From the NCBI RefSeq assembly GCF_034377285.1, contig NZ_CP139715.1:4200001-4264000 (forward strand): 64,000 nt of DNA, given 5' to 3'. Below the pieces are notes generated by a model. That model saw only the letters and a list, made by a program, of their open reading frames with translations. It was not told where the DNA came from and did no database searches. Source of the stretch: Thalassobaculum sp. OXR-137. Its GTDB lineage: Bacteria; Pseudomonadota; Alphaproteobacteria; Thalassobaculales; Thalassobaculaceae. A program made the position numbers and the translations under genes. Below are positions 6,096-49,412 of this stretch, piece after piece (the stretch's first letter is position 1; every line of letters starts with the position of its first letter).

Positions 6096-6778
6096 CGAAC
6101 CGCCCCTTCCCGCGCCTTCTCACCGCTGTCCAGGTCGGCGATCACGGTCTCGCCGGCGACGCAGCGCTGGCCGAGCGCCACCAGCGGCGCCACGTCCGGC
6201 GGCAGGTACACGTCGACCCGGCTGCCGAAACGGATCATGCCCATGCGCTCGCCGGCCAGCAGGGTCTGGCCCTCGCTGATCTTGCAGACGATGCGGCGGG
6301 CGACCAGGCCGGCGATCTGGACGAAGGCCGTGGGACGGCCGTCGCGGGTCTCCATCGCCACGAGCTGCCGCTCGTTCTGCTCGCTCGCCTTGTCCAGCGA
6401 GGCGTTGACGAAGGCGCCGGGGACATACGCAAGCTTGGTGATGCGGCCGTCGACCGGGATCCGGTTCACGTGGACGTCGAAGACGTTCATGAAGATGCAG
6501 ACGCGCTGCACCTCGCCCTCGCCCATGGCCAGTTCCTTGGGCCAGGGAGCGGGGCCGACCGAGACAACCACGCCGTCGGCCGGGCTGATCACCAGCCCGT
6601 TGCGCACCGGCGTCACCCGGTTGGGGTCGCGGAAGAAATAGACGCACCACGCCGTCAGGATCATCCCCGGAACGAGGAGCCAGTCGGCGATCATGGCCAG
6701 GACGATCGTCGCTACGGCGAAGATCGCGATGAACGGTCGCCCTTCCCGGGCGATCGGCACGAGGATTGAGTTCAGCAC
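6092..6778 (-). CDS. psd: Phosphatidylserine decarboxylase (short, PSD-A type)
   Basis: 228 residues. It converts phosphatidylserine to phosphatidylethanolamine. A hydrophobic N-terminal hairpin (about residues 18-48, with a FFRDP turn after it) anchors the enzyme. The C-terminal part holds [13 protein letters not shown], in which the Gly-Ser bond is the expected self-cleavage site that produces the pyruvoyl group. [12 protein letters not shown] is the conserved His-containing motif. The length matches the short alphaproteobacterial/archaeal type. It lies 16 bases downstream of the LysM gene and overlaps pssA. Confidence 0.95.
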
Positions 6779-6794
6779 GGCAGGTTTCCGTCGA

Positions 6795-8231
6795 TCAGTT
6801 CACCGTCGGCAGGCCGAAGACCTGCCCGGGATAGATCAGATCCGGATTCTGGATCTGATCGCGATTGGCGTCATGGATCTGCACGTAGCGCAGACCTTCG
6901 CCGTACACCCGGGTCGCAATGACCCAGAGATTGTTACCCGGTTGGATAACCACAAGCCTGTCGTTCGGCAAACCTTTAAGCGGTGCCGCCCGAACGAAGG
7001 GGAAAGCGACCCGCGCGGCGACCTTCCCGCCGGAGTCCACCTTGTCGACTCGCAGATTGTAATTGCCCGGCGCGACCGGCTCCTTAGGCGTGAGCTGCCA
7101 GCGGCCTTCGGCGTCGGCGGTGGCATTGCCGGCGGGTTTGTTGTCGATATAGACCTCGACATCGGCGTTCGGCTCGGTCCGGCCGCCGAAGACCACCTCG
7201 CCCTTGTCGTCATATTCGATCACGTCGACCGACACGTCGCCCGCCTGAGCAACATCGGCGGCGGCCGGCTGATCGGCAGAAGACGGCGCCTTAGCCGGTT
7301 CGGGGAAGGCCTTGACCGCGACCGAAGACGGCGCGCTCTGCGCATCCGACGCCGGCTGATCCGAACCCGTGGTCGCGGACGGAACGCTCTGGACCGGAGC
7401 ATTCTCTGCCGTGGCACTCTGAGCCGGCTTGGCCTGGGACGCCGCGGTCTCGGCGGGCGGGGCGGCCGCCGACTGAGCCGGCGGGATCTCTGCGGCCGGC
7501 GTCGCGCTTGCCGGTGACTGGGCGTCCGCCGTCACCGTCTTCGTCTCGGACGGCGCCGCATCCGCGGTGGCCGGGCCGGCGGTCGGGGCCTGGAGCACAC
7601 GGGTGGCCCCGCCCTTGGCCTCGTCGCGCGGCATCACCATCGCCAAGGGCTGGCTCGGCTCGCTGGTCGGACGGCCGGCGATATCCTTGCCACTCTCCGG
7701 AACCACCAGCACGACGGCCTCTTCGGACTCGGCAGTCTCGCTTTCGCCCGTCTGCCTCAGAGTGAGGGAGAACTGGCCCGGACCAAGCTGATGGTCGGGC
7801 AGGAACACCCACTCCCCGCGCTCATCGCTGGTGACCTTGCCGATCTCCCGGTCGCCGTCGAGGATCGTGACCTCGGCGTTCGGCTTCGCGCGCCCGGCGA
7901 TGACGGTGTTTCCATCGGGATCGACCCGCACGATATCGAAGCTCGGTCTGCGCTTCGCCATCACGGCCGGCGGTTCCTTGGCCGGATCGGTCGGCGAGGC
8001 GGCCGGTTTCTTCGACGGCTCGCGCTTCGGCAGGACCGAGCCGTAATTCGCTGTGCCGGTGGAGGGAACGTTCACGCCGCCCTGCTGAGTGCCCGTGGAC
8101 GACCCGGCCGGCGCGCTGACCGTCGTCTTGGGCTCCTCCTCGTCGCCGGGGACCAGCCAAAAGTTCAGGCCCAGCGCTGCCAGGATCGCAACACCGCCCA
8201 TCACGCCCACGAGTGCCGGCTTAGAAACCAT
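6795..8231 (-). CDS. LysM domain protein with two Ig-like repeats, membrane anchored
   Basis: 478 residues. One membrane segment near the N-terminus (about residues 7-27) is followed by a Ser/Pro/Lys linker. A first Ig-like module (about 95-180, with [20 protein letters not shown]) comes next, then a long Ala/Pro/Gln-rich tether (about 190-320). A second Ig-like module follows (about 325-405, with [16 protein letters not shown]), and the protein ends in a LysM domain (about 425-476, with [18 protein letters not shown] and [13 protein letters not shown]). The layout suggests an inner-membrane protein reaching through the periplasm to peptidoglycan. It is the first gene of the minus-strand unit with psd, pssA and the CDP-alcohol transferase, which ties it to envelope synthesis. 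No enzymatic domain is visible. Confidence 0.85.
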
Positions 8232-8338: not shown

Positions 8339-8929
8339 ATGAGCAAGTCACACTCCCAGTCTATTTGCGTCTTCTGCGGATCTTCTTCCAGGGTTGACGC
8401 CGTGTATAAGACCGCCGCCACCGAAATGGGCCGTCTGATCGGTGCCCAGGGCGGCACGCTGATCTACGGCGGCGGCCGCGTCGGCCTGATGGGCCTGACC
8501 GCAGACGCCACCCTGGAAGCCGGCGGAAAGGTCGTCGGGGTGATCCCGAGCTTTCTGCAGCATCTGGAAGTCGGCCATGCCGGCCTCGACGAGCTGATCG
8601 TCACCGACAGCATGCACGAGCGTAAGCGCATCATGTACGAGCGCGCCGACGCCTTCGTCATCCTGCCCGGCGGTCTCGGCACCCTCGACGAGACCATGGA
8701 GGTCCTGACCTGGTCCCAGCTCAAGCTGTCGGACCGGCCGGTGGTCATCGTCGACGTGAACGGTTTCTGGCAGCCGCTGCTCGCCCTGATCGAGCATACG
8801 ATCGGCGCCGGCTTCACCCGCGAGGAAAACCGCGGGCTCTATAAAGTCGTCGACAGCCCGTCCGAGGTCTACGACGTCATCGGCAACTGGCACGCACCGG
8901 AAGGCGACCTGAAGGCCAAGTGGCTCTAA
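8339..8929 (+). CDS. LOG family protein (nucleoside 5'-monophosphate phosphoribohydrolase)
   Basis: 196-residue Rossmann-fold protein of the LOG/lysine-decarboxylase-like family, which releases the base from adenosine or cytokinin-riboside 5'-monophosphates. The nucleotide-binding N-terminus ([13 protein letters not shown]), the GGGRVGLMG loop, and the diagnostic PGGLGTLDE (PGGxGTxxE) motif are all present. RKR and TWSQL motifs around the active site are also seen. The length is typical. It is often mislabelled as lysine decarboxylase. It stands alone, with icd 88 bases downstream. Confidence 0.92.
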
Positions 8930-40861: not shown

Positions 40862-41043
40862 AAAATATTAACCATTCTTTCCATTCTGGATCGATTTTCA
40901 TAAACCCCTTCGCGATCTACATCTACTGCGCGCGGAGGATCGGGTCGGTCTATGCTGGTCGCTGGCATGCTGGCGTTCCCGGACATAAACTGATCGACTG
41001 AATATCTAGTGTTTAATACGCCTTACACTTGGGGGAAAAGGCG
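40862..41043 (+). promoter_or_regulatory. Promoter region of the cyclase-ATPase gene
   Basis: 182 bases, AT-rich at both ends (AAAATATTAACCATTC at 40862; TGAATATCTAGTGTTTAATACG near 41000). The second stretch is in the right place for a -10 region ahead of the TTG start. Confidence 0.4.
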
Positions 41044-44000
41044 TTGTCCGAGGAATCACGGCGTCCGGTCAAGGAACGACGCCATCTGACGGTCATGTTC
41101 GTCGATCTGGTGGGCTCCACCGGTCTGGTCGACGACCTCGATCCCGAGGATGCCCAGAACGTCTTCGACGCGTTCTCGGGGACGTGCGCCCGGTTGATCG
41201 GACAGTTCGGCGGCTATATCGCCCGGATCGAGGGCGACGGCGTGCTGGCCTATTTCGGCTTCCCCCTGGCCCGCGAGGATGCCAGCGAGCAGGCCGTGCG
41301 CGCCGGTCTCGCCGTCGCCGAGGCGGTCGCCAAGATCCGCACGCCGATGCGGACCACGCTGGCCTGCCGCACAGGCATCGCATCCGGTTCCGTGCTGGTC
41401 GGCGAGGCCCATACCAGCAGCGGGTCGGTCTTCTACGAGGTCATCGGGCGCGCGCCCCATGTGGCGCGGCGCCTCCAGGAACAGGTCGATCCCGGCGAGG
41501 TGGCGATCTCCGACGCGGTCTACCGCAAGGCCGGCGGCTTCTTCGTCTGCGCCCCGAACCCGCCGATCCGGCTCAAGGGGTTCCGCAATCCGGAAATGTT
41601 CTGGCGGGTGCGTGGCCATCGCGAGCTGCCCCTGCGCTTCCTCGCCCGCGACGCACTGCAGCGCTGCGCCTTCGTCGGCCGGACCGAGGAGCTGACGGTC
41701 CTGCACCGGCTGTGGGACGGGGCGCGGCTCGGCCAGGGGGCGGCCGTCGGCGTGGTCGGCCCGGCCGGCATCGGCAAGTCGCGGGTGATCTACGAGTTCG
41801 TCCATTCGGTGACCGAGGACCAGCCGCATCTGGTCCTGATGCAGGGCAACACACACCATCGCAACAGCCCGTGGCAGCCGCTGCGCGACGAGCTGATCCG
41901 GCATCTGGACGCCGCCACGCCGCCCGGCGGATCGCGGCTGGAGACGCTGACCCGCGAACTGGCCGCGTCCCCCGGCGAACAGGAAATCGAGAACGCCCAG
42001 GCGATCCTGCGCATCCTGGAGGACGGACAGTCCGGGGTCGCCATCTCGCGCCCCGGCGAGGAGCGCGCCCGCGTCGTCGCCGCCCTGGTGCGCCGTCTGG
42101 AGGCGCTCGCCGCCCGCACGCCGGTCATCGTGGTCATCGAGGACGTCCAGTGGCTCGACGACTCCTCCACCGAGTGGCTGGAGGTGCTGTGCCGGGGGGT
42201 GGAGCAACACCCGATCCAGGTCGTGCTGACCAGCCGGGAGACCCTGTCCGCCCGCCTGAAGCTCGACGTCACCGAACTGCAGCTGTCCGGCCTGACCCAG
42301 GAGGACGCCCGGGCGATGGTCGACCTGCTGATCTCGGAGAAGCCCTTCGCCCATCTCGACGCCCAGGCGGTGCTGGCCAAGGTCGGCGGCATTCCCCTGT
42401 TCATCGAGGAGTACGTCACCCACCAACTCGACCGGGTCGCCGCCCGCAAGGGCAACGGCGACGGCCGGGAGGTCGATCCGGAGGACGCGCCGGGCACGCT
42501 GATGGACCTGCTGAACGAGCGGATCGACGAGCTCGGCCCCGGCAAGGCCTTCATCCAGACCTGTGCGGTCTGCGGCGACGTGTTCGACCTGCGTCTGGTG
42601 GCGCGGACCGTCGGGGTCGATATCGACCAGGCCATCGCCGTGATCTCGGACCTGGAGTCGCGCGGCATCCTGACCGGCAGTGCCGCGGTCGGCGACGAGT
42701 TCCGGTTCCGCCACGCGCTGCTGCGCGACGCCGGATATTCCAGCCTGCTGAAAGCCGACAGGGCGGCCCTGCACGGCCGGATCGCCCAGGCGATGGAGAC
42801 CTACGCGGCGGAGGACGGCTTCGCCGCCCTGCCGGAGGTGCTGGCCTGGCACTTCTCCGAGGCGGACGAGGTGGAGAAATGCCTGAGCTACCGTCTGGTG
42901 GCGGCGGAGAAGTTCAAGGGCCAGTACGCCGCGACGGAATCGATCCACCAGCTCGAGCTCGCCGCGGCCGAAGCGGACGCCATGGAGGAAGGTGGCAGCC
43001 GCCGGGAATGGCTGGTGCGGATCTACAACCTCATCGGTGCCACCCGGAACATCTTCTACGGATGGGGCGATCAGGTCGGCCAGGAGATGTTCGAGAAGGC
43101 CCTGTCCCTCACGGTCTCCAGCGACGACGGCCGGTCGACCTTCGACGCGGTGCGCGGTCTCTGGAACGCCAACATGATCCAGGGCAACTATCCGCTCGTC
43201 GAAGTTCTCACCCGCCAGCTCAGCGCCATCGCCGCGCGCTCCAGAGATCCGCTGATGAGGGTCGATGCGGCGAACGCCAACGGCGCCTATCGGCTTTGGT
43301 CCGGCGGCTTCAAGGAAGCCCACGCGAGCTTTCAGGAAGCCCTGCGGCTCTACGGTTCTGCGGGCATCAATCGAGCGATCGGGGCGCAGGGCACAGACCC
43401 CGGTGTTGTCGCTCTTTGTCTCAGCGCCTGGAATTTCTGGTTCTTAGGAGATCGGGACGCCGCTTTCGAGACAATCAAGGCCGCCAAGCAGCGTTCTGAA
43501 AGGATGCAGCACGTCTTCGGCCTCGCGTACTCGCACAGTATCTGCGCGTCGATTTGGCAGTGCGAGAGAAACCCTGAACAGGCACTGGCCGAAGCGAACC
43601 AGTCAACACTTATCGCAAGCGAAAATAAGTCGGGTATGCGCTACTGGATCGACCGTGGCGGCATTCTCGCTGGTTGGGCAATTGCATTCTCTGGCGACAG
43701 GCAAGCCGGAATCTCCCGGATCCGCGAGTCGATCGGCTCCTATAAGAGCGGCGGCGGCGGACAGCTGCTGCCCTATGCCCGGACCTTGCTGGCGGAATGT
43801 CTGCTGGCTTCCGACCTTCTCGAGGAGGCCGAAGCCGAACTCACCCAGGCCGGCGCGGACCTTCCGTCAGAGCACCCCTATTATTATGATTCTGAACGCC
43901 TGCGTCTGCTCGGCGAGGTGCTGATCCGACGCGGCTACGAGACAGAGGGTGCCGAGGCCCTGGCCTCCGCCTTGTCGTCTGCCGAGGCCTTCGACTCTCC

Positions 44001-44052
44001 GCCGCTTCGCAAGGCGGTCCTCGAAACGCGGGCCCACCTGCAACGGCGCTGA
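41044..44052 (+). CDS. Class III nucleotide cyclase - AAA ATPase - TPR regulator
   Basis: About 1002 residues from TTG 41044 (a TTG 15 bases earlier is the alternative). The cyclase homology domain (about 10-185) has HLTVMFVDLVGSTG and EGDGVLAYFG, giving both metal aspartates. The transition-state Asn position reads GRAPHVARRLQ, with His139 where Asn is usual. An AAA_16/STAND-type ATPase follows: P-loop GPAGIGKS at about 239-246 and Walker B VIVVIEDVQWLDD near 361. The C-terminal half is TPR-like helices (AEALASALSSAEAF at the end). Proteins of this plan are large signal-integrating regulators. The 43381-43680 stretch is clearly lower in GC than the rest. It converges on the TfuA gene with a 6-base gap. 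Confidence 0.88.
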   Translation: MSEESRRPVKERRHLTVMFVDLVGSTGLVDDLDPEDAQNVFDAFSGTCARLIGQFGGYIARIEGDGVLAYFGFPLAREDASEQAVRAGLAVAEAVAKIRTPMRTTLACRTGIASGSVLVGEAHTSSGSVFYEVIGRAPHVARRLQEQVDPGEVAISDAVYRKAGGFFVCAPNPPIRLKGFRNPEMFWRVRGHRELPLRFLARDALQRCAFVGRTEELTVLHRLWDGARLGQGAAVGVVGPAGIGKSRVIYEFVHSVTEDQPHLVLMQGNTHHRNSPWQPLRDELIRHLDAATPPGGSRLETLTRELAASPGEQEIENAQAILRILEDGQSGVAISRPGEERARVVAALVRRLEALAARTPVIVVIEDVQWLDDSSTEWLEVLCRGVEQHPIQVVLTSRETLSARLKLDVTELQLSGLTQEDARAMVDLLISEKPFAHLDAQAVLAKVGGIPLFIEEYVTHQLDRVAARKGNGDGREVDPEDAPGTLMDLLNERIDELGPGKAFIQTCAVCGDVFDLRLVARTVGVDIDQAIAVISDLESRGILTGSAAVGDEFRFRHALLRDAGYSSLLKADRAALHGRIAQAMETYAAEDGFAALPEVLAWHFSEADEVEKCLSYRLVAAEKFKGQYAATESIHQLELAAAEADAMEEGGSRREWLVRIYNLIGATRNIFYGWGDQVGQEMFEKALSLTVSSDDGRSTFDAVRGLWNANMIQGNYPLVEVLTRQLSAIAARSRDPLMRVDAANANGAYRLWSGGFKEAHASFQEALRLYGSAGINRAIGAQGTDPGVVALCLSAWNFWFLGDRDAAFETIKAAKQRSERMQHVFGLAYSHSICASIWQCERNPEQALAEANQSTLIASENKSGMRYWIDRGGILAGWAIAFSGDRQAGISRIRESIGSYKSGGGGQLLPYARTLLAECLLASDLLEEAEAELTQAGADLPSEHPYYYDSERLRLLGEVLIRRGYETEGAEALASALSSAEAFDSPPLRKAVLETRAHLQRR

Positions 44053-44058
44053 CGGGTT

Positions 44059-44811
44059 TCAGGCGACACGCGGCCACGCCTGGCCCTCCGCCCAGGCAAC
44101 GAAGGCCCGCCAGGCCGAGGTGTCGTTGAAGGTGTAGCGCACGGTCTTCGGTTCCGAGAATTCGGCGGCCCGGTTCCGCATCATCGTCAGCAGGGTCTCC
44201 GCATCCTCCGCTTTGACGTCGACGAGCTTTTCGGAGATCTGTGCGGCCAGGGTATCGATATCCCCGCGATGCCCGCCCTGCTCCAAGGCCCGCGCCGATA
44301 TCCGGGGCACTGTCCGATCACGGTATCCCAGCGCTTTTGCCGCGTCCCGATACAGCGCCAGACTGCCAGGGTCCGACAGTTGATCCACGGGAAAGGCCGC
44401 AAGGGTCGCCCGGATGCTGACCATGGCCAGGGTCAGCGGACGATGGCCGAGTTCCAGCGGACCGTGGGTGACGGCCACCTCGTCGTCATCCTCCAGCATG
44501 CCGTCACGAAACGCCTCGTAGACGCTCCCGACTCCCACCACGCCGAAACTGTCGAGTTCGGCCGCGCGCAGGGCCCCGATGCTGGAGGCCCCGAGGATAT
44601 GGACACCCTGGGCCATGGCCCAGAGCACTTCCTTGTGCCAGACCGAGGGCACAGTATCGAAGAAGCCGTCGATAATGCCGATCGCCCTGGGCGACTCACG
44701 CAGAGCCAGATACACGTCGCCCTGACGGGCGGGACCGCGGAAGGACAGTTCCGGGAACCGCTCCCGAGCGCCGGGCGCCAACGACGGCCCGCCGAACACG
44801 ATCAGGGTCAT
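44059..44811 (-). CDS. TfuA-like protein (YcaO partner)
   Basis: 250 residues. The ATG at 44811 overlaps the YcaO stop (ATGA). TfuA hallmarks: IVFGGPSLAPGARERFPEL, PSVWHKEVLWAMAQGVHILG, ASSIGALRAAELDSFGVVGV, and GMLEDDDEVAVTHGP. In characterised systems TfuA acts with YcaO to install thioamides in a peptide or protein backbone. No other tailoring enzyme or transporter adjoins it here. The longer open frame upstream is YcaO shadow. Confidence 0.92.
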   Translation of the reverse strand: MTLIVFGGPSLAPGARERFPELSFRGPARQGDVYLALRESPRAIGIIDGFFDTVPSVWHKEVLWAMAQGVHILGASSIGALRAAELDSFGVVGVGSVYEAFRDGMLEDDDEVAVTHGPLELGHRPLTLAMVSIRATLAAFPVDQLSDPGSLALYRDAAKALGYRDRTVPRISARALEQGGHRGDIDTLAAQISEKLVDVKAEDAETLLTMMRNRAAEFSEPKTVRYTFNDTSAWRAFVAWAEGQAWPRVA

Positions 44812-46058
44812 GACGCTGCCCCCTGCTCCGGATCGATCCCGGCGGCGCGAAGCGCGCGGCGCCCCGGCCGATAGAGACGGGCATTCGGATTGCCCTCCAG
44901 ACCCGGGACGATGACCCGCGCCACCGGGATGTTGAACTCCGCACGGGTCAGGTCGACCACGATCACCTGCTCCAGCCCGATCGCCGACAGCCGCTCGACC
45001 ATCCGCTCGATCAGCGCCCGGGAACTGCGCCCCTGCAGGCTGGGCACATCGCCATAGGAAACCGGGGGCGGCGCGGAGCGTGTCTCGGCCACCGGCGGGA
45101 CGACCGGCGTTTCGTCCGGACGTTCGTCGTAATACGTCGGGTCGATATCGTCGCGCACGCCGGCAATCATGGTGAGCCTGCCCTGAGCCGCTTCCGACAG
45201 GGCGCGGGACAGGGCGATATGGGCGAAGGGGTGGCATCCGTGCCCGTCGAAGCCGCTGACGGAGATGGGCATTCCGGTGGGCGGCGTCGGGATCCAGACG
45301 TTGAACACCGGCACCCCGATCTCGGAGGTGAGGTTCCAGGCCCGCACCGGCACCCCGGCGGCGGCATACCGGTCGAGCAAGGCGCGGCAGTGGGGATCGG
45401 TCACCGTGGAGAGATCCAACTCGCACCGGTCGCGGTCTTCCCGGGATCTAAGCCGCCAGAGCGCCAGGCAGTCGCGCTCGATCACCTCGCTGAGGCCGTG
45501 GCAGATCGCCTCCTCGATCGTATTGCCGGAGGCGAGCCCGTTGGAGGTGCAGAGAAAATAGCCGCTGCCCTCGGGGAAGGGCGTGCGGAAATCCGTATGG
45601 ACCGCCTCATAAGGTACCCAGACCGGATCGCCGGTCACGAGCTCGTAGCCCTGGATCCACAGCAGCCGCGCCGTCGCCGTCAGATCCTTGCGGGTCGAAA
45701 GAGCCATGGAGGTGACGTCCACGACCGTCTCGCGGAACCGCAACTCGTTGTAGGAACCAAGCAGCAGCGGCGCCAGGATATGCTCGGCATGATGGATTTC
45801 GATCGCCTCCATCAGGCCGGAGGCCTTTGCCGCGTCCAGGGTCGCCCCCTTGCCCTGCGACACCGAGACGGAGCGGGCGTTCGGGCGGGTGACCATGACC
45901 ACCGGAATGCCGATGGTGTCGAGGCCGGTCACGTTGGCGACACGCGTGATGCCGAAGACAGGCAGCAACGGCATCACGCGCTCTATCGTTTCGCGCGGTG
46001 AACAGGCACGCGTGGTGCCCTCGATCTCCAGAAAGGTAACCGGCGCAGCGTCGTTCAC
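44808..46058 (-). CDS. YcaO-domain cyclodehydratase/thioamidation enzyme
   Basis: 416 residues from GTG 46058, the second of two tandem GTGs after GGAGG; a TTG at 46070 is in frame. YcaO ATP-site motifs are present: SVSQGKGATLDAAKASGLMEA with IEIHHAEH, then SNGLASGNTIEEAICHGLSE with VIERD. GHGCHPFAHIALSRALSEAAQ and the C-terminal NIPVARVIVPGLEG are also present. The enzyme family activates backbone amides with ATP. With TfuA next to it the likely product is a thioamide. The substrate candidate is the small gene 60 bases upstream. Confidence 0.93.
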   Translation of the reverse strand: MNDAAPVTFLEIEGTTRACSPRETIERVMPLLPVFGITRVANVTGLDTIGIPVVMVTRPNARSVSVSQGKGATLDAAKASGLMEAIEIHHAEHILAPLLLGSYNELRFRETVVDVTSMALSTRKDLTATARLLWIQGYELVTGDPVWVPYEAVHTDFRTPFPEGSGYFLCTSNGLASGNTIEEAICHGLSEVIERDCLALWRLRSREDRDRCELDLSTVTDPHCRALLDRYAAAGVPVRAWNLTSEIGVPVFNVWIPTPPTGMPISVSGFDGHGCHPFAHIALSRALSEAAQGRLTMIAGVRDDIDPTYYDERPDETPVVPPVAETRSAPPPVSYGDVPSLQGRSSRALIERMVERLSAIGLEQVIVVDLTRAEFNIPVARVIVPGLEGNPNARLYRPGRRALRAAGIDPEQGAAS

Positions 46059-46118
46059 CACTCCCTCCAATCGTCTGGGATCACAGGCGCGATTGTCGGG
46101 TATCGTGACCGCGTGCCG

Positions 46119-46349
46119 TCAGGCCCCGTCGATACCTTCCATGCAGTTGAAGCTGTCGCTGCGGTCGGCGGTGCCGTCGCTGCGCAGCACGAAGGCCTTA
46201 TTCGGGAACTGGGCGCCCGCCTTGTTCAGGACCTTCTCGAAATTCGGATTGTTGTCCAGCCGGTCGAGCAACCGGGTTTTCTTCACCTCGTACCAGTCGC
46301 CGTTGTCCGCCTGGTAGAAGATGCCAACATTCCACACATCATCGGCCAT
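46119..46349 (-). CDS. Small protein preceding YcaO-TfuA, candidate substrate
   Basis: 76 residues; AAGGAG lies 7 bases before ATG 46349, better than the longer frame. The sequence starts MADDVWNVGIFYQADNGDWY, has a charged middle (TRLLDRLDNNPNFEKVLNKA) and ends DRSDSFNCMEGIDGA with the only Cys near the C-terminus. The body looks like a small folded domain or leader and the tail like a short core. It is the first gene of the minus-strand YcaO-TfuA unit. No similarity to trifolitoxin or Nif11-type precursors is seen. Alternatives: a regulator or recognition protein rather than a precursor. Confidence 0.75.
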   Translation of the reverse strand: MADDVWNVGIFYQADNGDWYEVKKTRLLDRLDNNPNFEKVLNKAGAQFPNKAFVLRSDGTADRSDSFNCMEGIDGA

Positions 46350-46427: not shown

Positions 46428-46443
46428 GTGTGAGAATTCACAC
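46428..46443. promoter_or_regulatory. Perfect palindrome between divergent units, candidate operator
   Basis: GTGTGA-GAAT-TCACAC lies 79 bases upstream of the small-protein start and just ahead of the protease gene. It is built of TGTGA/TCACA half-sites as in Crp-family operators, but with a 4-base instead of the canonical 6-base centre. It argues against the GTG at 46430 as the protease start. Confidence 0.5.
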
Positions 46444-46486
46444 TGACGGCAAGCGGTGCGCAAGAAAAAGCTGCACCGTTCACTTC

Positions 46487-48715
46487 ATGATTTGGCCGAG
46501 AACTGGTCGGGGGGCTGGGACCGTGGAAGTCACGTCGATTGTGGCGCCGAATGCCGAAGTCTTCGCCGGCGACGTCGCAAGTCCTCCGTCGGTCCCGTGC
46601 CCCTGGCCGCAAGCCGGCACCGCGCCGGAGCCTTTGCAGCTCTCGGCCCGGACGGCGGAGGGATCGTGGTACCTGCTGACGCTGGCCGAGGACGGATCGC
46701 CGGCCCATCAGGGGACGCTGCGGATCTCGCAGGAAGCGGGCGCGCTCTGCGTCTCCGGCGATCTCTACCGCGTGCCGCGGGGGTTGGCGGCCGGCGAGCT
46801 GCCTCACGGGAGCGAACGTCTGGCCGTCGGCGACGGCTGGTACTGCCAGCCGAACCGCAGCGACTACGCCTGCCATTTCCGGTCCATGGGCGGCCGCCTG
46901 GACGGCAACGCCCTCACCCTGCAAGCCCGGGTCTTCTCCTGGGTTCCGACCGTCGGCAGCACCGCCAGCAACCGGGTCGGCGATTTCGGGAGTTTCGCCG
47001 ATTGCGCGATGGCGCTGACCCTGCAGCCGACGCTGCACCGACCGCCGGCGGCACCCGCGACCCCTGCCCTCGCCCCCGCTCCGGCCGCCGCCCCCGTCCT
47101 GGCCGGCGCGATCCTGTGCGACGGCCGTCCGCACGCTCTGTGGGCGGTGAAAGCCGCGGAGTTCCCCCGGGGCCTGCGGCTCGTCGTGCACGAGATGGAG
47201 GGGCGTCCCTGGCCGGAGGACGAGACCTACAACGCCCGAACCCTGGTGGACATCTATCGTAAGGCCGGCATCGACTTCGAGGTCATCCGGCCGGCCGGGC
47301 GGATCCCCAACGACCCCAGCCTGACCCGCAGCGAGCTCGACGCCATGCTGGCCGAACAGGTGGCCCGCTACGATGCGGGACCGCTCTGGGTGCAGCACCT
47401 GTTCCTGGTTTCCTCGCTGAACTGGTCCGGGCTCGACGGCACCGGGCAGTTCGGCAACATCGCCGGTCTGATGTTCGACAACATCGACCGCCAGCGCCAG
47501 GGCGCCGCAGTCTTCCTCGACGCAGACCTGGCCAGTTCCGTCGCCGATCTCAACACCCGGATCGACCAGAGCATCCGCGGCCTGCCGATCGGCCGGTCGC
47601 CCCAGGTCGCCCTGCGCACCATGGCCCATGAGATGGGCCATACCCTGGGCCTGCGCCATTCGCCGGTGGAGCGGGCGCAGAATTGCGGGATCATGAACCA
47701 GATCCAGGAGCTGCTGCGGATCGTCGACCCGGCGACCGGCCCTCTGTTTCCGGCGATCTCCAAGCTCGAGTTCGACGCGGTCGACAGCCGCAACCTGAGC
47801 CACCGCCCGGACCCCGAGGTCTGTCCCGGCTGGGGCAACTGGAGCGTGCCGCCCAAGGGCATCGGGATCGGGCTGCAGCCGGACACCGGCCGGACGCCCG
47901 GCTTCAAGACCGACCCGGTGCTGGACATCCGGGTGTCGGTTCGGCCGGCCAACGAGCTGGCGGCCGAGGACGCGCCGGCGGTGATCAAGCGCAGCTTCGA
48001 CCTGGGCGAACCGGTGTTTCTGGACGTCACCTTGCGCAACCTCACCGACGCCTCGATCACCGTGCCGGCCTCGATCACCCTGACCGACGGACTGACGGAA
48101 GTGGCGGTGATGGATCCGGGCGCCGAGCGCCGCCGCCTGATCGGCGCCGCCCAGACCCTGTGCGAGGGAACCGGCGTGGCGAAACTGGCCCCCGGCTCGC
48201 GCCACCGGCACATCCTGCAACTGCACAGCAGCGGCGACGATCCGGTCTTCACCGGGACCGGCGACCATGTGATCGAGCTGGCGGTGCGCACCGGCGAGCG
48301 CGGCTGGATCGAGGGCCCGTCGGTCACTGTGACCGTGCGCGTCGACCCGCCGCGGTCGCGCAGCACCGCGCGCATCACCGGACGGCGCCCGTTCTGCGAG
48401 GCCATGGCCCTGGGATATCTGGCGACCTATCGCGGGATCGAGGATACCGACATCCTGCTGCGGCAGCCGGCCTATCCGCTGGGCGCGCGGCTGGCGGCCG
48501 GCGTTCTGCAGGTGGCGACCTTCGCGGAATCCCCGATCGACGGAAAAGCCCGGATGTCGCCGATGACGCCGAACGCCCGCCGGGTCCGGGCCGCGATCAC
48601 CGCGATGAAACAGTCGGGCGTGACCCGGGAGGCGGTCGTCGCCGTGGCCGAGGCGATCAATCCGCTAACCGAGAACCGCTCGGCGGTGGCGAGGGCCATC
48701 GAGGAGAACTGGTAG
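46487..48715 (+). CDS. Metzincin-type zinc metalloprotease (matrixin-like)
   Basis: About 742 residues from ATG 46487; GTG 46523 is equally possible and GTG 46430 falls in the palindrome. The zinc site is complete: His381-Glu382 in MAHEMGHTLGLRHSP (HExxHxxGxxH), followed by a Met-turn in NCGIMNQ. The N-terminal part (about 1-190) has a beta-rich lipocalin-like composition with an Ala/Pro linker. The C-terminal part (about 440-600) has Ig/beta-sandwich character (LGEPVFLDVTLRNLTDASIT). No clear signal peptide is seen with any start. It is divergent from the YcaO unit. Substrate and location are unknown. Confidence 0.82.
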   Translation: MIWPRTGRGAGTVEVTSIVAPNAEVFAGDVASPPSVPCPWPQAGTAPEPLQLSARTAEGSWYLLTLAEDGSPAHQGTLRISQEAGALCVSGDLYRVPRGLAAGELPHGSERLAVGDGWYCQPNRSDYACHFRSMGGRLDGNALTLQARVFSWVPTVGSTASNRVGDFGSFADCAMALTLQPTLHRPPAAPATPALAPAPAAAPVLAGAILCDGRPHALWAVKAAEFPRGLRLVVHEMEGRPWPEDETYNARTLVDIYRKAGIDFEVIRPAGRIPNDPSLTRSELDAMLAEQVARYDAGPLWVQHLFLVSSLNWSGLDGTGQFGNIAGLMFDNIDRQRQGAAVFLDADLASSVADLNTRIDQSIRGLPIGRSPQVALRTMAHEMGHTLGLRHSPVERAQNCGIMNQIQELLRIVDPATGPLFPAISKLEFDAVDSRNLSHRPDPEVCPGWGNWSVPPKGIGIGLQPDTGRTPGFKTDPVLDIRVSVRPANELAAEDAPAVIKRSFDLGEPVFLDVTLRNLTDASITVPASITLTDGLTEVAVMDPGAERRRLIGAAQTLCEGTGVAKLAPGSRHRHILQLHSSGDDPVFTGTGDHVIELAVRTGERGWIEGPSVTVTVRVDPPRSRSTARITGRRPFCEAMALGYLATYRGIEDTDILLRQPAYPLGARLAAGVLQVATFAESPIDGKARMSPMTPNARRVRAAITAMKQSGVTREAVVAVAEAINPLTENRSAVARAIEENW

Positions 48716-48722
48716 CGGCGCG

Positions 48723-49412
48723 TCAGAAGTTCGAGATCATCGACCGCAGGCGATCCAGGTCCAGGATCTCGAGCACCTGGCGCGACTTCCGGATGAGCCC
48801 CTCGCTCTCCAGATACGCCAGCTCCCGCGACACGGCCTCGCGGTGGGTGCTGATGCGGTTGGCGATCTCGAGATGGGTCGGCGGGCTCTTGATCAGCCGG
48901 ATGCCGCCCGCCTCTTCGGGAGCGTCGCTGGCCATCCGGACCAGTTCGGCATGGATGCGGTTGTTCACCGCCAGAGTGCTGAACTCGAAGACCCGATCGC
49001 TGAGGCTGCGGACCTGCTGCACCAGCTCCTTGATGAAGCGCATGGCGACGGCGGGGTGCTCCTGGATCAGCGTCTGGAATTCGACCTGACCGAGCACCGC
49101 CGTCTCGCAGTCGGTCAGGGCCACCACCGTGGCCGAGCGCGGCCGGGCGTCGATGGCCGAATACTCCCCGAACGTCGCGCCTTCATCCAGGTCGCGGTAG
49201 GAAACCTCCTTGCCGCTGGTGGAGAACCGTTTCGCGCGGACCCGGCCGCTGGCGAGGATGTAAACCACATTGGTCAGATCCTGCTCGCCGACGATCTGAC
49301 GCCCCTTCTGGTACCGGCGCCAGTCGCAGAGATCGCCGATGCGATCGAGCACCGCCTCGTCGAGATCGCTGAACAGATAGGCCTTCTTCAGCTTTGCGGC
49401 ACGCGTGTTCAT
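48723..49412 (-). CDS. Crp/Fnr family transcriptional regulator
   Basis: 229 residues. The N-terminal cyclic-nucleotide-binding fold contains FGEYSAIDARPRSATV, which keeps the Gly-Glu and Arg-Ser/Ala pattern of a phosphate-binding cassette. The long dimer helix follows, and the C-terminal winged helix has THLEIANRISTHREAVSREL. No Fnr-type N-terminal cysteine cluster is present. cAMP binding is therefore plausible, with the cyclase domain protein 5 kb away a possible source (inference). Convergent with the protease. Confidence 0.9.
   Translation of the reverse strand: MNTRAAKLKKAYLFSDLDEAVLDRIGDLCDWRRYQKGRQIVGEQDLTNVVYILASGRVRAKRFSTSGKEVSYRDLDEGATFGEYSAIDARPRSATVVALTDCETAVLGQVEFQTLIQEHPAVAMRFIKELVQQVRSLSDRVFEFSTLAVNNRIHAELVRMASDAPEEAGGIRLIKSPPTHLEIANRISTHREAVSRELAYLESEGLIRKSRQVLEILDLDRLRSMISNF

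Follow-up and report, generated by a model that had tools for sequence, protein, structure and literature searches.

A YcaO-TfuA cassette with a likely small precursor in Thalassobaculum, and a possible cyclic-nucleotide/Crp circuit encoded at the same locus

The window analysed here, a stretch of 64,000 nucleotides from Thalassobaculum sp. OXR-137 (contig NZ_CP139715.1, positions 4,200,001 to 4,264,000), carries on its minus strand a compact cassette of three genes: a gene for a 76-residue protein that is likely to be a precursor (46119-46349, ATG at 46349), a ycaO gene with a GTG start (44808-46058) and a tfuA gene (44059-44811). An earlier, sequence-only reading had described exactly this arrangement, with a Shine-Dalgarno site before the small gene and a four-base overlap between the two larger ones, and its coordinates are confirmed: AAGGAG lies a few bases 5′ of the small gene's ATG, and the ATGA at 44808-44811 is both the YcaO stop and the TfuA start. 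Both enzymes score above the Pfam cut-offs (PF02624 at 3.6e-81 for YcaO, PF07812 at 3.8e-40 for TfuA), and the host genome holds one match to each. The nearest solved chain to YcaO is the MJ1094 YcaO (6pe3), and TfuA aligns with the solved TfuA 6xp8 at E 1.7e-28. For the small protein there is no match above cut-off in Pfam and none in NCBIfam; its best match among solved structures in the PDB (E 0.059) was taken as chance.

While the three genes stood, the locus had been drawn too narrowly, missing a cyclase, a Crp-family gene and a palindrome. On the plus strand, 41029-44052 encodes a protein of 1007 amino acids that combines a class III cyclase domain (PF00211, 1.3e-13), an AAA_16 domain (PF13191, 1.2e-22) and weak TPR matches; the gene is convergent with tfuA and ends six bases from it. 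On the other side, 2.4 kb upstream of the small gene, a Crp-family regulator is encoded on the minus strand at 48723-49412 (PF00027 at 9.2e-19 and PF13545 at 5.8e-14, that is, the cNMP-binding and HTH_Crp domains). The palindrome TGTGAATTCTCACA occupies 46429-46442, its 5′ end 93 nt before the small gene's ATG. Its region is shared by a divergent plus-strand gene for a HEXXH metalloprotease-like protein with sub-threshold Pfam metallopeptidase matches (46430-48715, with a likelier ATG at 46487), which is present in genomes G002 and G003 and absent from that place in G004; its membership of the module is uncertain, and it is possibly a leader protease.

The small gene was found in four of the six Thalassobaculum genomes searched, upstream of ycaO-tfuA in all four, and the other two (about 1.5 Mb each) lack it. 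A search of 61 genomes likewise located it in four, the host included, all of the same genus, and a public search reaching close relatives only matched T. litoreum DSM 18839 (95%) and a Thalassobaculaceae MAG (88%). The conservation beside YcaO-TfuA that the sequence-only reading proposed as its check thus holds inside the genus (four genomes) and not beyond it, where a profile search of 385 class genomes yielded weak matches only (best E 0.002). One such weak match, a 107-aa frame in G363 (L011), was discarded as not belonging to a YcaO locus, and a plasmid search with the window's protein gave no match. In three pairwise comparisons within the genus, dN was 0.025-0.076 and dS 0.23-0.54; with dN well under dS, the small gene is a real gene under purifying selection.

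The homologues differ in an uneven way. Across the four Thalassobaculum sequences the N-terminal part is constant and the C-terminal part variable, and the most distant homologue, that of G004, is alike over the first ~60 residues at 53% identity overall, its tail consisting of three GEGT[ED]G repeats in place of the window's SFNCMEGIDGA. Residues 1 to ~61 of the window protein are therefore leader-like and residues ~62-76, ending in SFNCMEGIDGA, core-like, as RiPP leaders and cores show just this combination of a conserved N-terminus and a changing, repeated tail. The weight formerly placed on the tail's single Cys has to be given up, because the G004 tail has no Cys, and this residue was rejected as the key position. 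An AlphaFold2 model based on three near-identical sequences is weak (pLDDT 57, pTM 0.37); it gives residues 6-47 a hairpin and a helix and is least confident in the tail. Gene order and the leader/core pattern support the earlier view of a YcaO-TfuA pair with the small protein as its likely substrate.

Many other YcaO-TfuA loci also have a small gene directly upstream of ycaO, some with repeated tails, and small genes unlike that of the window hold the same upstream place at other YcaO loci. For instance, the tail at L050 contains DDSQRHAANFIGT five times, the frame at the small-gene position of L051 (7100-8053) has twenty copies of AGRWA[VI][TS]P behind an RGPDGVLYEV leader, and GGKQRFA repeats occur in the small-gene tails of L063 and L065. 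A leader HMM built from seven small genes also finds L120 (2e-23), L097 (1e-11) and, weakly, L095 (0.02). The window's stretch QADNGDWYEV looks like these RGADGRLY leaders, but the similarity is not significant: the HMM did not find the window protein, hhalign gave a probability of 0.1, and shuffling of the leader motif gave p 0.08 for the window and 0.013 for G004. Membership of the window protein in the RGADGRLY family is therefore not claimed, and a single precursor superfamily sharing an RxxDGxLYxV leader is a lead only.

Several other features were seen at related loci. A 74-aa family lies upstream of ycaO at L052, L054 and L057, with ends of the form SQTGEGIGSACYLIDLSAI... and a GEG stretch like the G004 repeats. 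L070 has long Gly/Ala repeats upstream of ycaO and, downstream of tfuA on the operon strand (6658-6936), a 92-aa frame that by eye has the look of a ThiS/MoaD-type carrier. Right after tfuA, L049 (3687-5009), L067 (5748-7001) and L107 (7668-8888) encode HEXXH proteins of about 400-440 aa, for which Pfam at 0.001 gave no match.

The tails bear on a rival reading, which we consider rather unlikely, that the small protein is a recognition or delivery partner and that YcaO-TfuA modifies another protein, either the neighbouring cyclase or a housekeeping protein in the manner of McrA or uL16. Large proteins are indeed modified by YcaO-type enzymes, as described for McrA Gly465 and for uL16 in the accessible parts of PMC5589413 and PMC13063428, respectively. 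The McrA-glycine models are the best NCBIfam matches here, below cut-off, and at L066, L067, L071 and L107-L110 ycaO stands beside a cyclase with no small gene seen between the two. However, the G004 tail was changed and repeated while the rest of the protein was kept, which a pure recognition protein need not show, and the five- and twenty-fold repeats of L050 and L051 argue the same way.

In a YcaO tree of 50 rows (without L059, L060 and L065, because no YcaO frame was called there, and with L114 dropped as a duplicate of L049), the window falls in a 15-row clade with support 98/99. Both the cyclase-AAA protein and Crp accompany twelve rows of this clade, or 13 counting L051, where AAA and Crp are seen at the stretch edge; L097 has the cyclase-AAA gene, and L061 is without cyclase, Crp, precursor or box. 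The wider sample came from a TfuA search, which matched 21 of 385 class genomes (25 loci), and from a YcaO search of a phylum sample, which matched 14 of 398 genomes. Leaving the Thalassobaculum loci and plasmid records outside the comparison, 23 class loci outside the genus and 16 YcaO matches of the phylum sample made up 39 stretches from 30 genomes. A cyclase, AAA-TPR or BTAD-TPR neighbour was found in 27 of these 39 and in one of 40 controls (Fisher 9e-11), the controls having been placed by hand at round-number positions, not randomly, in 19 of the 30 test genomes and the host. Stretches and controls were searched with the same neighbour seeds, whose sources were the window and plasmid loci beside YcaO. 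A Crp neighbour was found in 7/39 against 1/40 (p 0.03), a modest enrichment when all YcaO-TfuA stretches are taken together. A rough but independent comparison for cyclases alone used 206 PF00211 matches, summed by hand across some 85 Mb (the 19 class genomes that are not of the genus), which predict 0.027 per 11 kb; 14 of the 39 stretches hold a cyclase. The twelve stretches without a sensor neighbour are L052, L058 (a 4.6-kb contig), L059, L060, L061, L063, L065, L070, L098, L104, L111 and L112, L052 being scored as a miss though blastp flagged its neighbour.

Plasmid records add further arrangements, with 252 matched and 18 read, 17 of the latter picked by rank and annotation. The annotation of Azospirillum plasmids runs cyclase or AAA ATPase, ribbon-helix-helix, 65-aa hypothetical, YcaO, TfuA, Crp/Fnr; in one record an IS5-family transposase gene follows the cyclase. 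In a Rhizobium record ycaO is preceded by a BTAD-TPR gene, and in an S. meliloti record, which shows no TfuA, by a TPR gene annotated as adenylate cyclase with no PF00211 match. In a Streptomyces record the seeds matched no cyclase, AAA-TPR or Crp gene, and in P. aminophilus ABC and efflux genes are found instead. BTAD-TPR or TPR genes stand beside ycaO in place of cyclase-AAA, mostly in rhizobial genomes, at L062, L064, L069, L099-L103, L105, L106, L113, L119 and L121.

The palindrome is the second element shared across the clade. TGTGAATTCTCACA is retained in T. litoreum, and the G003 copy has one spacer change; the window's box has a spacer of 4, not 6, and is overlapped by a one-mismatch N6 reading. 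A precursor could be assigned at 14 clade loci, and a TGTGA-N4/6-TCACA palindrome precedes it in every one; 12 of the palindromes are exact, and two (L072 and L093) have one mismatch. Their 5′ ends lie 75-124 nt before the start codon in the 13 clade loci having one. Precursor assignment here relied in part on visual reading, and the L095 precursor reached just E 0.021 with the leader HMM. The remaining locus is L097, an A. brasilense record in which the precursor frame (8572-8760) has no start codon, apparently through a frameshift, and is intact in sister records; its box precedes the leader, and its distance is counted to a leader residue because the start codon is absent. By comparison, 440 kb of control stretches contain no exact N4 site and one exact N6 site; sites with one mismatch number 2 at spacer 4, 2 at spacer 5 and 4 at spacer 6. 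Across the 5.65-Mb host genome there are five exact N4-6 sites, the window's box being the sole N4 one, and two matches to the reversed pattern; no second precursor was recognised when the four other boxes were read by eye. A simple scan found no sigma-70-like promoter. Each of seven further Azospirillum records has the cyclase, AAA and Crp matches and a leader-positive precursor, with a single exact box that precedes the first in-frame ATG by 80-99 nt. Coming from one genus, these records bear out the pattern but count for few independent events, and much of the box evidence comes from Azospirillum. Among the loci left out of the tree, a low-GC genome (L060, 2553-2568) has an exact TGTGA-N6-TCACA box with a Crp gene beside tfuA, and no precursor was recognised there.

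Since the box lies in a divergent intergenic region at these loci, it might serve the divergent gene (the metalloprotease here, the ribbon-helix-helix gene in Azospirillum) and not the small gene. This appears improbable: the divergent gene varies among lineages whereas the distance from box to precursor is kept, and in G004 (L072) it is crp that lies upstream, transcribed towards the small gene. The palindrome is more readily taken as a likely Crp-family operator for the small gene's operon. The solved chains nearest to the window's regulator include cAMP-binding regulators, and 15 of 15 Crp rows retain GE...R[ST] and RE in the helix, which, judging from E. coli CRP, we take to be the nucleotide pocket and the helix that reads TGTGA. 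The residue pattern is compatible with binding of both a cyclic nucleotide and the palindrome.

The catalytic domain of the neighbouring cyclase passes the PF00211 cut-off (51.4 against 21.9 bits), one of ten PF00211 matches in the host genome. Both Asp residues (in VDL and GDG) and the Arg are present, and the Asn position is a His; we assume the usual class III roles for these sites, namely the metal-binding Asp pair and the Asn/Arg of the active site. The His lies at about residues 138-152 (RAPHVARRL), and of the 13 clade cyclases that cover the position aligned to this Asn, 12 have His and one, L050, has Tyr. Cyclase activity or substrate is therefore uncertain: the domain may be inactive or may make a nucleotide other than ordinary cAMP. 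The last 548 residues (460-1007) are modelled as an all-helical, TPR-like superhelix (pLDDT 72, pTM 0.52); its Foldseek neighbours are TPR proteins with low TM-scores, several of them LGN or Pins with partner peptides bound.

Gene order, conservation, the two-part small protein, the shared palindrome and the co-occurrence of the parts can be read from the DNA itself. Taken together they suggest, with a probability that we put at about 0.6, that a cyclic-nucleotide/Crp circuit belonging to this locus controls a thioamide-RiPP operon, a scheme in which we infer the thioamide chemistry, the modified residue, the nucleotide, the direction of regulation and the target of the product. The cyclase-AAA-TPR protein would sense a ligand and make a cyclic nucleotide; the Crp-family protein would bind this nucleotide and then the palindrome before the small gene, whereupon the operon would be transcribed. 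YcaO and TfuA would swap a backbone oxygen for sulfur in the C-terminal core of the small protein, a glycine of the EG[IT]DG stretch being the likeliest site, with the N-terminal ~60 residues acting as leader; thioamidation of the core tail is proposed by analogy with that of McrA Gly465. A limit on this circuit is that the small-protein family is, as far as the searches go, known from one genus only.

It is also conceivable, if unlikely, that the product of the cassette is an antimicrobial or signal peptide destined for export, with cyclase and Crp as mere nutrient-type control. The known thioamide RiPPs are bioactive natural products in the sections available of Malit et al. 2021 (PMC8120280), and the divergent metalloprotease-like gene could free the core. 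Against export, no transporter was seen among the partly annotated open reading frames between the window's cyclase and crp genes, but this is a weak argument because published thioamide clusters, in the same sections (PMC8120280), also lack known transporters. As the sequence-only reading suggested, the product may stay inside the cell; no sign was seen of its other suggestion, modification of a host protein. If the locally controlled operon is extended to a closed loop within the cell, the thioamidated core would itself be the ligand of the cyclase's TPR superhelix, and this ribosomal peptide would thereby set how much cyclic nucleotide is made, which in turn would control synthesis of the peptide through the local Crp and box. 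This is a tentative proposal that we do not hold probable, and the TPR part of the neighbouring cyclase is the boldest candidate for the peptide's target. Were it true, YcaO-TfuA loci with BTAD-TPR or cyclase-TPR proteins would form one broad peptide-to-TPR signalling class in Alphaproteobacteria.

Thioamide RiPPs have been studied mostly as antibiotic or cytotoxic natural products, and no role was found assigned, in the literature searched, to the many proteobacterial YcaO-TfuA loci. That the locus brings a cyclase, a Crp-family protein and a likely operator of its own points to regulation or signalling and offers a hypothesis about the timing of peptide production. The chemistry is known, and the regulatory module was not found described in the open-licence PMC literature, where titles and abstracts gave no Crp-controlled or cyclase-linked YcaO-TfuA operon. 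Specifically, the parts covered of Malit et al. 2021 (PMC8120280), which describes 2,326 clusters, have no mention of a cyclase, of Crp (by term search) or of an operator, and the whole words cyclase, BTAD, SARP and TPR are absent from those of Santos-Aberturas et al. 2019 (PMC6511847).

Among known systems, the YcaO-TfuA thioamidated RiPPs (thioamitides and thiovarsolins, as far as covered in PMC8120280) are alike in their adjacent ycaO and tfuA, upstream small gene and leader/core organisation, and the window differs in having no other recognised modifying enzyme. In methanogens, thioamidation of McrA Gly465 adds 16 Da (from the portion seen of PMC5589413). TfuA with a thiocarboxylated ThiS-like carrier is described as the route of the sulfur (likewise from part of PMC13063428). 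The nearest prior mention of such a neighbourhood is that of the branch 6 graspetide ATP-grasp loci, which also hold YcaO, TfuA and adenylate cyclases, with no Crp regulator or box described in the passages available of PMC8939145; at the window's locus, for its part, no ATP-grasp gene was noted. The methanogen McrA-glycine models (TIGR03266 and NF033432) are matched by the window's YcaO and TfuA below both cut-offs (231.1 against 365 and 164.3 against 235.2 bits), and the likely substrate is a 76-aa protein, unlike McrA. The TOMM kinase/cyclase fusion model (TIGR03903) matches the window cyclase over model positions 283-1248 at 3.7e-97, below cut-off (326.5 against 705.75 bits), leaving unmatched the first 282 positions, which are presumably the kinase; this is the sole match in the host genome at E 1e-10, and 7 of 14 control genomes also have matches, none above cut-off. 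Finally, the locus resembles cAMP regulation of the E. coli CRP type in its Crp-family protein and its TGTGA/TCACA half sites, and differs from it in the box spacer of 4 bases and in a regulator that is encoded beside a RiPP operon and a cyclase.
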